From positions 2,480,001 through 2,544,000 of the forward strand of contig NZ_QASA01000001.1 of the NCBI RefSeq assembly GCF_003340495.1: a DNA stretch of 64,000 nt, in the 5' to 3' direction. This document shows, piece by piece, positions 47,073 through 53,510 of this stretch. How positions within the stretch are numbered: position 1 is the first letter of the stretch; every line of letters begins with the position of its first letter. This DNA comes from Adhaeribacter pallidiroseus. Lineage in GTDB: Bacteria; Bacteroidota; Bacteroidia; Cytophagales; Hymenobacteraceae. A model generated the notes under the pieces. That model was given only the letters and a program-made list of their open reading frames with translations. It was not told the DNA's origin and searched no databases. The position numbers and the translations under genes were made by a program.

Positions 47073-49574
47073 ATGAAATTATATGTCAACCGTAATCAAA
47101 TATTAACTGCTCCTACTTACCAGCAAGGCTGGGAAAAAGCCCAGGCCGAATACGAACGCCAACAGAAAAAATTAAGGAAGCCCGTTAATACTTCGGGTTC
47201 TTTTATTAAAAATTTTAAAACTAAAGCAATGGTTTTGCTGTGCTTGCTGGGCTGCCCAATCATGGTGTTCAGCCAGAATTTATCGCAAACGATCCGGGGC
47301 AAAGTGATTGACCGGGAATCACAAACCCCTTTAATCGGGGCTTCTATCAGCATTACCAACCTAAACCCCGTTAAAGGCAGCATTACCGATGCCGAGGGTA
47401 ATTTTAAGCTGGAAAAGGTACCGGTGGGCCGGCATACTTTAAAAATAAACTACATTGGTTACGAAGAACAAACCATTCCGGAGTTGCTATTGGGTTCGGG
47501 TAAAGAATTGGTGCTAACGGTAGGTTTAACCGAATCGATCCGGCAAATGGACGAAGTAGTGATTACGGCCCAGCCCGATAAAGGCAAACCGCTTAACGAC
47601 ATGGCCACTCTGAGTGCCCGGTCTATTTCTGTGGAAGAAACCAAACGCTACGCGGCCAGCGTGAACGACCCCGCCCGGGCTGCCATGTCGTACGCCGGCG
47701 TTGCCACCACCGACGATGGCGGCAACGAAATTGTGGTGCGCGGCAACTCGCCCAAAGGCATTTTATGGCGCCTGGAAGGCATAGAAGTTCCCAATCCGAA
47801 CCATTTCGGCGAAGAAGGTGCTTCGGGCGGCGGCATTAGTATTTTAAGCGTAAACATGATTGATAATTCTGATTTTTTCACCGGTGCTTTTCCGGCCGAG
47901 TACGGCAATGCTTTGTCCGGTATTTTTGACATGAAACTACGGTCAGGGAATAATGAAAAAAGAGAACACGCTTTACAAGTAGGGCTATTGGGAGTAGATT
48001 TTGCCACCGAAGGCCCAATAAAGAAGAATTATAAAGGATCATACCTGGCCAATTACCGGTATTCTACACTTGGTATTTTAAGTAAAATTGGCGTGAATAT
48101 CGGGGGCGATGCTATTCCGGAGTTTCAGGATTTTTCGTTTAAAGTCCTGTTGCCTTCCACAAAAGCCGGTATTTTTACGCTCTGGGGAATAGGTGGCTAC
48201 AGCACCCAGGCCCAGGAAGCCGTGCGCGATGCTTCGGAATGGAAAGAAAAAGAAGATCGCTTCGATGATATTTTTAAATCCGGCATGGGGGCCACCGGTT
48301 TATCGCACGTGTATTTTGTAAATTCCAAAGCTTACCTGGAAACCGTGCTTTCTCTTTCGGGTAACTTTACCAAATATCGGTACGACTCCATTGGTACAGA
48401 TTATAATGTAAATACCATTTACCAAGAAAGTTTTAAAAATTACGCCGGTCGGGCCTCGGTATTATACAACCACAAAATAAATAACCAGCATACCGTGCGG
48501 GTGGGGGCTATTTACAGCAATTTAAATTTTAACTTATTCAGCGAAGGCCGCAACGAAGATCATAATAATCAGATAGAGCGATTTGTAGATAACAAAGGCG
48601 GCACCGGCTTATGGCAAGGATATGGCCAATGGAAATACCGCATTTCCGAAAAAGTAACTTTAAATACCGGCTTGCATTACATGCGCTTAGCTTTAAACGG
48701 AAACAGTGCTCTGGAGCCGCGCTTAGGTATTCGTTGGAATTTTGCGCCGAACCAAGCTTTGGGAGCGGCTTTTGGTACCCATAGCCGTAACGAATCTATG
48801 GCGGTATACTTTGTACAACAACCCATTGGAAACGGCCAGTATTCCCAAAGTAACAAAGATTTAGAACTAACAAAAGCCCGCCACTACGTTTTATCTTATG
48901 ACCGCCTATTGCGCGAAGATCTCCGGTTTAAAGTAGAAACCTATTACCAACAGCTCTATAATCTGGCCATTAGCCCGGATTCCAATAATACCTTGGCTGC
49001 CCTAAATTCAAGAAACGGCCTAATGCCCGATAGCCTGGTGAGCAATGGAACTGGCAGAAACTATGGCGTAGAAATGAGTTTGGAGAAATTCTTCACAAAT
49101 AATTATTATTTTTTAGTTACCAGCTCGTTGTACAATTCAAAATATACCGCGGCGGATGGTATTGAAAGAAATACCCGTTTTAATGGGCAGCATATTTTAA
49201 ATGCGTTGGGTGGTAAAGAGTTTAAAGTAGGTAAGAATAGCGGGAATTTAATCGGGTTGAATGTGCGTTTATTATGGGCGGGCGGTAACCGATATACCCC
49301 GCTAAACATAGAGCAATCGCGGCTACAGGGCAAAGCCGTTTATTACGAAAAACAAAGCTTTGCCTCCCAAGCACCTGATTACTTCCGGACCGATATCCGG
49401 GTGAGTTACCGGAAAAACCGGCCCAAGGCTTCCTACATCTTGTCCCTGGATATTCAGAATGCTACCAACCGGTTGAATTTTTATAATCAGTATTACGATG
49501 AAGATACCCAAAGTTTAAAAATCAGTACCCAAACCGGACTTATTCCGGTTCTGAATTACCGCATCGAGTTCTAA
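47073..49574 (+). CDS. TonB-dependent receptor with CarboxypepD_reg-like domain
   Basis: 833 residues. CarboxypepD-like domain (TIRGKVIDRESQTPLIGASI), plug (VNDPARAAMSYAGVATTDDG, NEIVVRGNSPKGILWRLEG), then a beta-barrel to the end. The signal peptide starts at 47229 (MVLLCLLGCPIMVFS), preceded in frame by 52 charged residues from 47073 (MKLYVNRNQILTAPTYQQGW ... KKLRKPVNTSGSF). It is unclear whether the longer N-terminus is translated; the ATG at 47229 is a plausible alternative. As last gene of the sigma/FecR cluster it is the likely signal-sensing receptor. Confidence 0.88.
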   Translation: MKLYVNRNQILTAPTYQQGWEKAQAEYERQQKKLRKPVNTSGSFIKNFKTKAMVLLCLLGCPIMVFSQNLSQTIRGKVIDRESQTPLIGASISITNLNPVKGSITDAEGNFKLEKVPVGRHTLKINYIGYEEQTIPELLLGSGKELVLTVGLTESIRQMDEVVITAQPDKGKPLNDMATLSARSISVEETKRYAASVNDPARAAMSYAGVATTDDGGNEIVVRGNSPKGILWRLEGIEVPNPNHFGEEGASGGGISILSVNMIDNSDFFTGAFPAEYGNALSGIFDMKLRSGNNEKREHALQVGLLGVDFATEGPIKKNYKGSYLANYRYSTLGILSKIGVNIGGDAIPEFQDFSFKVLLPSTKAGIFTLWGIGGYSTQAQEAVRDASEWKEKEDRFDDIFKSGMGATGLSHVYFVNSKAYLETVLSLSGNFTKYRYDSIGTDYNVNTIYQESFKNYAGRASVLYNHKINNQHTVRVGAIYSNLNFNLFSEGRNEDHNNQIERFVDNKGGTGLWQGYGQWKYRISEKVTLNTGLHYMRLALNGNSALEPRLGIRWNFAPNQALGAAFGTHSRNESMAVYFVQQPIGNGQYSQSNKDLELTKARHYVLSYDRLLREDLRFKVETYYQQLYNLAISPDSNNTLAALNSRNGLMPDSLVSNGTGRNYGVEMSLEKFFTNNYYFLVTSSLYNSKYTAADGIERNTRFNGQHILNALGGKEFKVGKNSGNLIGLNVRLLWAGGNRYTPLNIEQSRLQGKAVYYEKQSFASQAPDYFRTDIRVSYRKNRPKASYILSLDIQNATNRLNFYNQYYDEDTQSLKISTQTGLIPVLNYRIEF

Positions 49575-49714
49575 AATTTTTAAGTTAAGAATCCTGTTAA
49601 AATTTAAAAAATTTGTCTTCTACGCTTAGTATATTGCCTTTTAAATGATGCCTTGTAACGGATTTTTCTTGAAACCAAATAGTGTTAGTACAATTCTATA
49701 ATTAAGATCAATGG

Positions 49715-49928
49715 AAAGGACTTACTTAACTTACAATGGCTTATCTTTGGAGCCTTTGCAAGTCTCCAGGCGTTGGTGCTATCTAACTTGTTGACATCAA
49801 ATTTTGCCTCGCGGCCGGCGGGCTTCGTTTGGCTCTTCCGGGCTGGCCTAAGCTTCCTTTCCTCGCTCCGCTACGGAATGTCTCCTTCGTCGACACCGGA
49901 ACCCTAGCAGGTGCTTACAGCCAAACTG
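49715..49928 (+). repeat. Inverted repeat, left arm
   Basis: About 80% identical by eye to the reverse complement of 50085-50297. The strongest block is 49831-49903, with about three mismatches in 73 bp (GGCTCTTCCGGGCTGG ... GACACCGGAACC). The block at 49715-49736 is exactly shared. Contains TATCTTTG at 49742-49749. Confidence 0.8.
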
Positions 49929-50084
49929 GTATCATCGCCTGGTAGCTATTGCTTTCCTTAGAGTGCCTTGCAAGAATGAGATATAAAAATTTCTAAATGC
50001 AGAAAGTTACCAGAATCAGCAAAAACAATTTTATACTTTGGTTTGTCTGCTTATGTTTAAACGGTAGCTAAGCATAAACGACAT

Positions 50085-50297
50085 CAGTTTGGCTCAGGAG
50101 GGCCTTCTAAGGTTCCGGTGTCGACGAAGGAGACATTCCGCAGCGGAGCGAGAAAAGGAAGCTTAGACCAGCCCGGAAGAGCCCAACGGCCCCCCGGCCA
50201 GGAGGCAAACAGGCTACTGGTCAAACTAGATAGCACTAGAGCCTGGAGACTTCAAAAGGCTCCAAAGTTCAGCCGTTGTAAGTTAAGTAAGTCCTTT
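50085..50297 (-). repeat. Inverted repeat, right arm
   Basis: Reverse-complement partner of 49715-49928. Its core block is 50111-50183. Separated by 156 bp, so the pair could form a large stem of about 210 bp in RNA or single-stranded DNA, or could be two copies of a mobile element in opposite orientation. Confidence 0.8.
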
Positions 50298-50380
50298 CTT
50301 TCTAAGAAAGCTATTACCTATAACCAGTTAAATTTTTAAAAAGCTACTGTAAAAAGCAATTTTTCTTAACCAATAACATC

Positions 50381-52978
50381 TTATTGAAACAAATCAGTGG
50401 CTATCAAAGCCGTCCAGCCGGTTTGGTGGGCTGCGCCTAAGCCCTGACCGGTATCGCCGTTAAAATACTCGTAAAATAAGATATAATCCTGAAAATCTTT
50501 GCTTTCTTGAAAAAGAGGGGCAGAACCAAACAAAGGGCGTTTTCCCGCAGCATTTTTTTTAAAAATTTTAAAAACCCGGCTGCTTAATTCTTCGGCAACT
50601 TCTTGCAAGGTGTAGTAATTACCGGAACGCGTGGGGCATTCTACTTTAAATTCGTCGCCGTAAAATTGGTAAAAGCGTTTTAACCCCTGAATGATCAAAA
50701 AGTTTAAGGGAATCCAAATGGGGCCGCGCCAGTTACTATTACCCCCAAACATATTATTATCGCTTTCGCCGGGCGTGTACCGGATGCTGTAATGTTTGCC
50801 ATCTAACCTGAAATCAAATGGGTGCTGTTGGTGGAACTTAGAAACCGAGCGAATGCCATATTCACTCAAAAACTCTTCTTCGTCGAGCAGGTATTTCAAA
50901 GTCATTTTCATGCGGTAACCCCGCATTAAACTAATTAAATGAAAACCTTTGGCATTTTTCCGTTCCCAATGCGACACCAAATCGGCTAAATCCGGGCGGT
51001 TCTGCCGGAACCATTTCATTCGTTGGTCCAGGGCTTCATCTTCCTGCATGCCTCCTTCCCCTACCGTTTCTACCACAAACAAGGGAATTAAACCAACTAA
51101 ACTGCGGACTTTTAAGGGAACTGATTTGTTCTCCGGAAAGCGCAACCGATCGTAATAAAAATTATCTTCCTCGTCCCATAGGTTTTCCTGCAGTTCGTTT
51201 AAGCCGTTCATGGCGCCGGCGATGTACAAAAAATGTTCGAAAAACTTGGCACTGATGTCGGAGTAAGCACTGTAGTACAAAGATAATTCGTGGGCGATCT
51301 GCATTAAGTTTAACGCGTACATGGCCATCCAACTGGTGCCATCCGCTTGTTCAATGTGGCCGCCACCGGGTAAAATGGTGTTCCGGTCGAATACGCCAAT
51401 GTTATCTAATCCTAAAAAGCCGCCTTCAAAAATATTGTTACCGTGTTCGTCTTTGTTGTTTACCCACCAGGTAAAATTTAGCATCAGCTTATGAAACACT
51501 TTCGTTAAAAAAGCTACATCGCCTTGCCCGTTATTAGCGGCTTTTTCCTGGCGGTAAATTTCCCAGGTAATCATAGCGTGAATGGGTGGGTTGCTATCGC
51601 TGAAATTCCATTCGTAAGCCGGTAATTGGCCATTCGGGTGCATGTACCATTCTTTGGTAAGGTATAGCAATTGGCTTTTGGCAAAATCCAGATCAACCAG
51701 GGCCAGCGGAAAACAATGAAAAGCCATATCCCAGGCCGCAAACCAAGGGTATTCCCACTTATCCGGCATCGATAAGATTTCTTTGGCATTGACGTGTTTC
51801 CAGCAATCATTACGTAAATGAAGCCGTTCGGGAGGCGGCGGCGGTTGCCCCGGATCGCCTTTTAACCATTGGTGCACATCAAAGTAGTAAAATTGCTTGT
51901 TCCATAATAAACCCGCCAGGGCCTGTTTTTTAATCTGGTAAGCTTCTTCGGTTTTATTAATTTTTAAAATTTGCTGGTAAAATTCATCTGCTTCTTGTTT
52001 CCGAAGCGAGACCAAATCGGAGAAAGTAGCAAAATCATAGTTAGGGTTTTGGGATAAACACAACCGAATACTAACCTGGTCCTGGGCAGGGACGCTTACC
52101 TCAAAAATAAAGGCCGCTTTGGTTCCTTTGTTTTCCGGATTAACAGTATCTTGATTATCAACCAGGTAATTGTTAATGCCATCTTTGTAGTAGTTACCCG
52201 AACCTGGCTGGTGGTACAAGCGGGATACGTTCGTTTCGTTTTCACAGTACACCTGTTGGGGATTTCCTTCGGCCGTTAAATAATATTGCCCCAATTGTTG
52301 ATGAAAAATTTCCATTACCTGGCCGGAGCCCGATTGAATGAATGGTTTGTAAGAGTCGTAGCCCCAGGCCCAGGTATTCCGGAACCAGATGGTGGGAATT
52401 ACCTGAATCGCGGCTTCCTCCTGGCTCCGGTTCATAACCGTAATTTGAATGAGAATGGTAGTGGGTGATTCTTTGGTATATTCAATAGCAATATCAAAGT
52501 ATTTATTTTGATCAAAAATGCCGGTATCCACAATTTCGAATTCAGCCTGTTGCCTGGTTCTTTGCCGATTGGTGTTTACTAATGGCGCGTACGGAAAAGT
52601 TTGCTGCGGGTATTTGTACAGCATGTGCATGTAGGAGTGCGTGGGCGTATTATTTAAATAATAATACAACTCTTTCACATCTTCGCCGTGGTTTCCTTCG
52701 GCATTGGTGAGGCCAAAAAAACGTTCTTTAATAATCGGATCTTGGTGGTTCCAGAAAGCCGGGGCAAAACATAAAAGTTGTTCGTCGTCGCTGATGCCGG
52801 CAATTCCTTCTTCGCCCCACCGAAACGCTTTGCTGCGGGCCATGTCGTGCGATACATAGTTCCAGGCATCGCCGTTGGGGCTATAATCTTCGCGTACAGT
52901 TCCCCATTGCCGGGCGCTTACGTACGGTCCCCATTTTTTCCAGGTATTATCTTTTAATCTTTCTTGTTCCTTGTTCAT
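50381..52978 (-). CDS. GH63-like (MGH1-type) glycoside hydrolase
   Basis: 865 residues from the ATG at 52978; the frame is open to 52996. No signal peptide, so probably cytoplasmic. The N-terminal beta domain (YVSARQWGTVREDYSPNGDAW, RWGEEGIAGISDDEQLLCFA) and the (alpha/alpha)6 domain in the second half (DKWEYPWFAAWDMAFHCFPLALVD, YEWNFSDSNPPIHAMITWEI, GFLGLDNIGVFDRN, ADGTSWMAMYALNLM, WRGPIWIPLNFLIIQGL) resemble MGH1/GH63 glucosidases and mannosylglycerate hydrolases. Substrate not resolved. Ends 84 bp before the inverted-repeat region. Confidence 0.85.
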   Translation of the reverse strand: MNKEQERLKDNTWKKWGPYVSARQWGTVREDYSPNGDAWNYVSHDMARSKAFRWGEEGIAGISDDEQLLCFAPAFWNHQDPIIKERFFGLTNAEGNHGEDVKELYYYLNNTPTHSYMHMLYKYPQQTFPYAPLVNTNRQRTRQQAEFEIVDTGIFDQNKYFDIAIEYTKESPTTILIQITVMNRSQEEAAIQVIPTIWFRNTWAWGYDSYKPFIQSGSGQVMEIFHQQLGQYYLTAEGNPQQVYCENETNVSRLYHQPGSGNYYKDGINNYLVDNQDTVNPENKGTKAAFIFEVSVPAQDQVSIRLCLSQNPNYDFATFSDLVSLRKQEADEFYQQILKINKTEEAYQIKKQALAGLLWNKQFYYFDVHQWLKGDPGQPPPPPERLHLRNDCWKHVNAKEILSMPDKWEYPWFAAWDMAFHCFPLALVDLDFAKSQLLYLTKEWYMHPNGQLPAYEWNFSDSNPPIHAMITWEIYRQEKAANNGQGDVAFLTKVFHKLMLNFTWWVNNKDEHGNNIFEGGFLGLDNIGVFDRNTILPGGGHIEQADGTSWMAMYALNLMQIAHELSLYYSAYSDISAKFFEHFLYIAGAMNGLNELQENLWDEEDNFYYDRLRFPENKSVPLKVRSLVGLIPLFVVETVGEGGMQEDEALDQRMKWFRQNRPDLADLVSHWERKNAKGFHLISLMRGYRMKMTLKYLLDEEEFLSEYGIRSVSKFHQQHPFDFRLDGKHYSIRYTPGESDNNMFGGNSNWRGPIWIPLNFLIIQGLKRFYQFYGDEFKVECPTRSGNYYTLQEVAEELSSRVFKIFKKNAAGKRPLFGSAPLFQESKDFQDYILFYEYFNGDTGQGLGAAHQTGWTALIATDLFQ

Positions 52979-53510
52979 TGCTAGCAGTTTAGCCACAGCT
53001 TAACATGGCCTTGAAAATATTTTGGTTTACCAAGCAACTTCTTTTTTAAATTTTACATCTTTGAGTAGGCTGGTGCAATGCTATATCCTTGGTTTTTAAG
53101 AAAACTGGCTGATAATCTCTTTTTTACGCCTTTTCAAAAATAATTTAAAAAAATTTATACGTTTTCTGTATGCAAAAACAAGCCGATCAGCATCGTATTT
53201 ATACCGGGGCATATTTTTATTAATAGAAGCACCCTACAAGTACCGGATTAAAGCTAAAAAGTAATTAGCAGATTAAACCTAGTTTTAAACCTAATTTACT
53301 AAGTGGTTCTTACCAATTAAAAGCTCCTACTGGAACAAAGCTAAAAAATTAGGATATTTCCTATTCTGACTTTTAACCCAGCTTTTTTTAACCCAGGTTT
53401 TTATTTCTATTTTTTAATTGCTACATATCTCCTTAAGATTGTTCGGAAAGAATTTGCGTGGTGAAAGGAATGTGATTTAAAATTTTTTAAATTTTTAATT
53501 ACAAGTAACT
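52979..53510. other. Divergent intergenic region, GH63 / OMP
   Basis: About 530 bp, AT rich. A symmetric AT tract (AAATTTTTTAAATTTTTAA) lies just before the OMP gene start. No gene, RNA or repeat recognised. Confidence 0.4.

Follow-up and report, generated by a model that had tools for sequence, protein, structure and literature searches.

As far as we are aware from the literature, high-copy repeats of bacteria take the form of short palindromes or simple hairpins. Cardinium, a member of the order Cytophagales, carries an IS982-derived MITE. In the cited sections this is presented as a bacterial MITE thought to be maintained by its parental IS (PMC9769881). RUP of Streptococcus pneumoniae is described as non-autonomous, with about a hundred intergenic copies and with ends resembling those of an IS630-family element of its host, IS630-Spn1 (PMC2229807, PMC3049150). 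REPINs and BIMEs form extragenic inverted doublets, occur as singlets too, and are predicted in the cited part to give hairpins in single-stranded DNA or mRNA (PMC3116915), and RAYTs flanked by unusual structures have been recorded in Bacteroidetes (PMC6006769). ERIC, Correia/NEMIS, and BOX are high-copy folded intergenic repeats, the reported effects of ERIC depending on its orientation to transcription (PMC2229807, PMC3049150). Here we analyze a large inverted repeat in the window, i.e., the whole 64,000-nucleotide stretch of the Adhaeribacter pallidiroseus genome (G000), and argue that it is probably a MITE-like, non-autonomous transposable element with structured arms, preserved here as an old copy, because we observe dispersed copies, a recurrent unit, terminal repeats, duplications, similar IS ends, and empty sites. 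No description of this element was found in searches of open-access papers.

The repeat consists of two inverted arms, 49714-49948 and 50063-50298, which are 82% alike and lie in the non-coding gap between convergent genes (Table 1). This position, given already by a sequence-only reading of the window, is confirmed by a repeat finder, BLAST, and the gene list, and the arm identity of about 80% estimated there agrees with the BLAST value (82% over positions 10-224 of the query 49705-49935 against the other arm). The repeat finder resolves the pair into an inner inverted block pair, 49826-49911 / 50103-50188, and an outer one, 49714-49790 / 50222-50298 (77 nt, 87% complementary). The inner blocks correspond to the near-perfect core of that reading, which is present and, at 86 nt (93% complementary), slightly longer than the 73 nt claimed. 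Folding of the pair yields -370.5 kcal/mol vs. -178.7 +/- 8.9 in 20 shuffles (z -21.5). Just two frames of at least 50 aa cover the arms. Both lie in the right arm, one per strand, with 50 and 73 aa, and are taken as chance. An Rfam scan of the window region at E up to 1 returned nothing at or above the cut-off, its sole hit, beside the repeat on the minus strand, reaching 18.3 bits vs. a cut-off of 34; nor did seven other arm loci give a match above the cut-off. The covariance model described below detected the two arms and no further ones in the window.

Table 1. Features of the inverted doublet and its flanks, in window coordinates.
Feature	Position	Strand	Basis or remark
Whole inverted doublet, still-recognizable extent, 585 bp	49714..50298	.	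original outer ends no longer recognizable
Left arm, hairpin P1 to TAGCTA closing strand; chimera	49746..49948	+	boundaries by eye vs. alignment A1
Right arm, both halves type A	50063..50266	-	boundaries by eye
Structured core, left arm	49806..49928	+	model 109.1 bits, E 8.6e-23
Structured core, right arm	50085..50206	-	model 115.6 bits, E 3.1e-24
Hairpin P1 (TGGAG...CTCCA)	49748..49768	+	inner pairs switch CTT/AAG to CGG/CCG across the family
Inter-arm spacer	49949..50062	.	sequence
Outer segment of left arm, with 19-mer exclusive to this arm pair	49714..49745	+	0 mismatches between window arms
Outer segment of right arm, with identical 19-mer	50267..50298	-	19-mer comparison
Left flanking gene, TonB-dependent receptor, outside the element	47073..49574	+	Pfam
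Right flanking gene, MGH1-like/GH63 glycoside hydrolase, outside the element	50381..52996	-	Pfam

With the left arm as DNA query, BLAST gave 42 matches in the A. pallidiroseus genome (6.43 Mb). A covariance model of the arm core (R1; 121 positions, built from 37 arms) found at least 81 hits there at E up to 1, at least 53 of them strong (E 2.8e-11 or better, all on contig C1), both counts being minima, as 150 of 1566 candidates were scored. At E up to 0.01, and with at most 61 candidates scored per genome, R1 had matches in 23 of 59 genomes. These comprise all 8 genomes of the genus, A. pallidiroseus included (1 to at least 61 matches each), and 15 of 29 other genomes of the family, from genera g2, g3, and g6, the weakest match being that in G012 (E 0.004). 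Among the candidates scored there was no match in the 14 genomes of genera g4 and g5 or in any of 22 genomes outside the family (at most 61 candidates per genome), both absences being provisional. One g3 genome of 4.1 Mb contains at least 110 hits at E up to 0.001 (150 candidates scored). As in MITEs, the element has no coding capacity and many dispersed copies. The suggestion of the sequence-only reading that the arms are copies of a mobile or repeat family is thus supported by dozens of copies and genus-wide matches, as well as by the units with ends and the empty sites described below; a search of the whole genome and of relatives shows that the arms are neither unique nor unconserved.

The genes next to arms have little in common: among 84 neighbor genes no Pfam family is shared by more than 4, and none of the 25 commonest of the 146 Pfam families found (84 of 85 neighbor genes scanned) is that of a transposase. 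One arm neighbor, in L070, is presumably a transposase. Arms of genus g3 at L037, L249, L259, L039, L251, and L261 lie amid other repeats, namely TGTCATTTCGAG-like motifs, TATAGTT motifs, and the palindrome GGACAGGTCGCGACCTGTCC.

The arms share a fold with strong covariation. In alignment A1, which holds 37 arms aligned by MAFFT from BLAST hits (one of 38, with an insertion, was left out), RNAalifold found double changes in 18 of 40 pairs. The hand-refined structure has 52 pairs in 10 helices, with 93.6% of cells paired; double changes affect 24 of the 52 pairs and 181 cells, compared with 15.3 pairs and 59 cells after shuffling and 4-10 pairs and 7-25 cells with slid partners. One helix is weak (columns 44-47 with 58-61, 63.7%). 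Alignment A5 comprises 49 rows from four genera, which were verified, and shows double changes in 28 of 33 pairs and 350 cells (shuffled: 21.8 pairs, 106 cells; slid: 14-74 cells), with 94.2% of cells paired vs. 32-48% with slid partners. Since A5 was found with and fitted to the model, as alignment A4 was fitted, pairing in these two is biased upward; A1 is unaffected. The layout is kept across the four genera of A5 while its helices are rewritten, e.g., 7 of 8 pairs of the long closing helix in other genera have double changes. Each arm is predicted to fold on its own, with heavy compensatory change.

Fold alleles are discrete. Besides the switch in the inner pairs of P1 (Table 1), the helices near columns 100-112 and 182-192 occur as type A (GGGC..TCTAA / TTAGA..GCCC) or type B (GCAC or GCCC..CTAG / CTAG..GTGC). 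Typing of 53 A. pallidiroseus arms gave 30 with both halves A, 19 with both halves B, 2 mixed, and 2 unclear; these types are letter patterns, and two typings disagree for a few arms, e.g., L072 minus and L074 5869. The left window arm is one of the mixed arms, its 5' half being type A and its 3' half type B, and its inner helices are therefore partly mismatched. Upstream of the arms in L052 (minus), L053 (5951), and L065 (6116 minus), P1 and the following GGTGCTAT segment are tandemly doubled, an AAG-type copy preceding a CGG/CCG copy.

The arms often occur in pairs. A set of 169 strong arms was collected from four species, those of G003, G004, and G006 being the best-scoring among the hits listed, and 116 of 125 hits at 88 bits or more were used for it. 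Within this set there are 42 doublets with arms no more than 1.2 kb apart, and in all 42 the 3' ends face inward; 85 further arms are unpaired. By letter pattern, the doublets divide into 22 clean A+B, 7 A+B with one half unread, 8 single-type, and 5 unclear. A single large hairpin of both arms was rejected as the main reading, since most doublets (29 of 42, type A + type B) differ in the arm-closing helices. For 9 of 11 strong A. pallidiroseus pairs the likeness of arm to arm lies within the range of unpaired members, the two exceptions being neighboring, related pairs. Most doublet arms being no closer than unpaired members, doublets are generally not fresh local duplications, and for the same reason one large RNA hairpin is the weakest of the three readings originally offered. 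An autonomous element enclosed by distant arms was also considered and rejected, since L080 and L078 contained ordinary genes.

The ends of the mobile unit and its duplications are seen mainly in one relative, G003, and in one A. pallidiroseus doublet, L067. Several doublets of G003 are 80-89% alike across about 715 bp and are bounded by terminal inverted repeats of a sequence near TAYCAAATAGTAA..AGTAGYTGCYATA, which for the most part lie 104-118 nt beyond the core. When up to 3 mismatches are allowed, this pattern occurs 53 times in G003, 11 in G000, 10 in G004, and 19 in G006, the reversed pattern at most once. TTA or TAA stands directly outside 18 of 27 recognized terminal repeats. Both ends of 12 units were read by eye. 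Of the 9 that could be read, 8 carry an identical 3 bp (TTA or TAA) on either side; the exception is L157 at 1571, and one end is unreadable in L153, L165 at 1184, and L170. Among paired arms a terminal repeat was recognized for 15 of 26 in G003, 4 of 22 in G000, 2 of 28 in G004, and 0 of 8 in G006, and among unpaired arms for 6 of 85 overall (3 of 31 in G000); because the scoring matrix derives from repeats that come largely from G003 and in part from those same arms, it may overlook other end types, and the count for G003 is circular to some extent. Outside G003 the ends appear to be mostly lost or of types absent from the matrix, with the cores remaining. No terminal repeat upstream of either window arm scores above the 99% background, and the window copy, with its unrecognizable ends and chimeric left arm, appears to be an old one. 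Short elements of about 100-200 bp (L195, L196, L197, and L209) have the same terminal repeats and no full arm, L195 and L196 retaining a 53-nt core fragment.

Filled and empty sites were compared at other loci, because the hydrolase adjacent to the window repeat has matches of just 52-53% in the six relatives that have one. The ffh-tadA gap measures about 785 bp in G000 and 781 bp in G003, each with a doublet, and 865 bp in G002, which has one arm there; it is short in G004 (88 bp), G006 (124 bp), and G001 (200 bp). In G007 it spans 418 bp with no arm detected, and in G005 tadA was not found nearby. The arm nearest ffh is type B in G000 and type A in G003, suggesting separate insertions or exchange. 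Occupied in three species and short in three, this gap resembles a favored landing place. The gap between sbcD and sbcC, which we take to be the genes for a hairpin-cutting nuclease, is 1043 bp long and holds a doublet in A. pallidiroseus (L072 5604-6644), vs. 298 bp in G004, 458 bp in G005, 230 bp in G007, 165 bp in G002, and 129 bp in G001, all without arms; sbcC was not found in the examined stretch of G003 and G006. The filled and empty sites at these two loci show that doublets come and go as a unit. Terminal inverted repeats, a target-site duplication, and filled and empty sites are all features of a MITE. The unit would be laid out as terminal inverted repeat, arm A, spacer, inverse arm B, and terminal inverted repeat, flanked when young by a 3-bp TTA/TAA duplication.

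A candidate mover is present in the A. pallidiroseus genome as three nearly identical IS630-type insertion sequences of about 1165 bp (L192 2457-3620, L193 2514-3678, and L194 2566-3730). These have TTA on both sides, the same 3-bp duplication as the doublets, and split frames for an HTH protein (188 aa) and a DDE_3 protein (212 aa), the latter scoring 112.2 bits vs. the NCBIfam IS630 cut-off of 100. Insertion at TA with TA duplication was found neither for the IS nor for the doublet, both showing 3-bp TTA/TAA. The ends of the IS and those of doublets agree at 19-22 of 28 positions. Such similarity is by itself not decisive, since a scan of 1.12 Mb, elements included, gave 14 sites with at least 20 of 28 matches. 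At E 1e-20 the IS was found in G000 (3 matches) and G001 (2 matches) and in none of the 6 other genomes of the genus, including G003, where the youngest units occur; convincing terminal repeats are absent around the two DDE_3 genes of that genome. Transposase activity is uncertain because of an in-frame TAA in two of the three A. pallidiroseus matches and in both G001 matches. From the similar ends and the same duplication we infer that an IS630-type (DDE) transposase may move the unit in trans. The earlier statement that no coding frame or known element explains the arms holds with regard to Rfam families and has to be qualified with regard to the ends, as the ends of young units in a relative resemble those of an IS630-type element.

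A RAYT partner in the A. pallidiroseus genome was rejected, as arms and Y1 genes are not associated there. The genome contains three Y1_Tnp genes (L081, L082, and L083; frames of 182-192 aa), and no arm was found within 7 kb around these loci (best 9.4 bits, E 0.72, filters off). Beside the first gene there are several copies of a short palindrome, CGCGGAAGTTACTTCCG, which is unlike the arms and absent from the window; beside the second is another palindrome unlike the arms, GCGAGCGTCCACGCTCGT.

Many arms occupy sites that correspond in two to four species. The cores average 91.9% identity and the flanks 79.4% in 23 A-A comparisons at these sites, with 72.8% for unrelated flanks aligned in the same way; for other A-A cores the average is 88.5% within genomes and 87.4% between them. 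In 8 of 46 cases the arm occupying the corresponding site is also the one that matches best in that genome, and a clean A/B switch is seen in 3 of 31 site comparisons, at two sites (33 comparisons were made, and two of L054 were dropped, the corresponding arm being ambiguous there). These data fit copying between dispersed arms or strong constraint, without separating the two. In the window itself, the outer 19-mer shared by the arms differs by 6 or more letters from anything upstream of the 167 other arms examined, and inner columns 84-183 are 93.8% alike, above 98.3% of the 666 arm pairs of A1, while over the whole arm the pair reaches the 77th percentile only. Given the shared 19-mer, the very similar inner part, and the chimeric left arm, one window arm has probably overwritten part of the other.

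Wobble pairs bear on the level at which the fold exists. G-T pairs on the arm strand are rare, at 18 of 1623 cells in A1, 15 of 3703 in A4, and 8 of 1526 in A5 (0.3-1.1%), the A5 count covering 48 of 49 rows with one spurious row left out, and one doubtful pair being left out of the A4 and A5 totals (with it, A4 has 73 G-T and 50 A-C). For tRNAs of the same genome the value is 47 of 620 (7.6%) in 29 distinct sequences, or 79 of 1006 over 47 readings when repeats are counted, with a finder that tolerates G-U and hardly A-C. The rarity of G-T pairs therefore favors a DNA-level fold and disfavors an RNA of the arm sense. A-C mismatches, equivalent to G-U in the opposite sense, number 26 in A1, 49 in A4, and 47 in A5 and are concentrated in a few pairs.

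The orientation of arms to genes follows a rule that a purely DNA-level fold does not predict, and this counts against such a fold. Among 75 single arms of four species (the 85 unpaired arms less 7 that have a weak partner and 3 that lack a gene on one side), the flanking genes are tandem and run against the arm in 44 cases and with it in 7, and are convergent in 22 and divergent in 2; corresponding-site arms are taken once per species here, so that the 44 and 7 are not all independent and the p value calculated from them is too small. In A. pallidiroseus alone the count is 13 vs. 4 (p 0.025), and it is 11 vs. 3 among 32 arms drawn from other genera and from G001, G002, and G005. Paired arms between tandem genes show no strand bias (13 vs. 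12). Replication orientation was rejected as the sole cause: genes at arm loci are hardly leading-strand biased (277 vs. 257), and where tandem genes lie on the lagging strand, 17 of 23 arms follow gene direction and not replication. Origin and terminus were placed here by fitting the GC skew of the fetched loci alone, with an explained share of 0.67 to 0.93. A 3'-UTR element in the arm sense was likewise rejected, a first count of 53 arms having shown no rule and the later count having given the opposite sense in single arms.

Because single arms obey this rule, a transcript-level effect is kept as the main rival. Under this explanation, which we consider unlikely, the arms would be a structured RNA family, their reverse complement acting in the 3' or 5' untranslated region of mRNAs, e.g., by steering decay or read-through, and the mobile element would be merely its carrier. 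Strong covariation in A1 and A5 would be expected of it, and for 44 of the 51 single arms located between tandem genes the reverse complement does have the direction of the genes, as it has in 17 of the 23 lagging-strand conflicts, although the former count treats corresponding-site arms of several species separately. The excess of A-C over G-T in A4 (49 vs. 15) and A5 (47 vs. 8) also points to the opposite sense. However, this excess is confined to a few pairs, is not significant in A1 (26 vs. 18, p 0.29), and amounts to only 16 vs. 10 in single arms, and the opposite-strand wobble of 0.9-3.1% is still below that of tRNA. Moreover, doublets carry both senses without tandem bias, and no common neighbor family and no Rfam match were found. 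The ncRNA-family reading made from the sequence thus stands in part: the conserved, covarying helices are what an RNA family would show too, and neither an Rfam match nor an RNA-like frequency of G-U was found.

Two further explanations place the fold in DNA. In the first, which we regard as improbable, the repeat would be a REPIN/BIME-like element whose hairpins a Y1/HUH (RAYT) transposase cuts and copies in single-stranded form, and the IS630-like ends would be a later acquisition. The inverted doublets, single leftovers, and high copy number resemble those described for REPINs (PMC3116915), and the genome does encode Y1_Tnp proteins, but arms are absent around these genes, i.e., a cognate flanked Y1 gene was not found in A. 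pallidiroseus, and the arms measure about 200 nt vs. the 20-40 bp given for REPs (PMC3733652). It is more improbable still that the arms have no function and are quasi-palindromic DNA repeatedly corrected by template switching, which would produce Watson-Crick helices without selection. Nearly all changes are indeed exact Watson-Crick doubles with few G-T intermediates. Such local correction, however, should keep short hairpins and not a whole layout, whereas the multi-branch layout persists over four genera with its closing helix rewritten, albeit in rows that were found by the model and are biased toward that layout.

For the MITE-like element with structured arms, which we prefer, the following course may be envisaged. 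After insertion the ends would decay and the arms would keep their Watson-Crick shape, the fold being selected or else kept by copying between arms, as suggested by the covariation and by corresponding-site arms seldom being mutual best matches. The likeliest working level would be folded single-stranded or cruciform DNA, enabling recognition and copying between copies. The main possible addition would be a transcript-level effect on neighboring genes. A bolder version, rather doubtful at present, is that of a new kind of selfish element with a DNA fold as the inherited unit: its homologous arms, in orthogonal types A and B, would each fold on themselves rather than pair with the inverse partner, and would spread by borrowed transposon ends and then by single-stranded arm-to-arm copying, surviving in four genera while most helix letters change.

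The element thus sets a multi-helix fold of about 200 nt, present in dozens to more than 100 copies in several genomes and in fewer than 20 in others, beside the described repeats. Across genera the fold retains its shape with few wobble pairs, and it seems to persist longer than the transposon ends by which it was carried. The many natural variants per genome provide material for asking whether folded DNA is the kept unit or whether a transcript effect retains the repeats.

In our comparison, the element appears to work like a MITE, with ends like those of RUP with IS630-Spn1 and with inverted doublets and single arms like those of REPINs. It is unlike RUP in size (about 715 bp vs. 107 bp) and in showing a 3-bp TTA/TAA duplication where RUP inserts at TA (PMC2229807); the cited sections on RUP describe no pair of separately folding, covarying arms (PMC2229807, PMC3049150). 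Unlike REPINs and BIMEs as presented in the cited part, it has arms that are several times longer and multi-helix, and it has IS630-like ends and TTA/TAA duplications (PMC3116915). It resembles ERIC, Correia/NEMIS, and BOX as a high-copy folded intergenic repeat, for which the cited sections describe no A/B doublet with facing 3' ends (PMC2229807, PMC3049150). The Cardinium element is likewise a MITE in a bacterium of this order and is thought to be maintained by a parental IS, the parent there being IS982 and no structured arms being mentioned in the section cited (PMC9769881).
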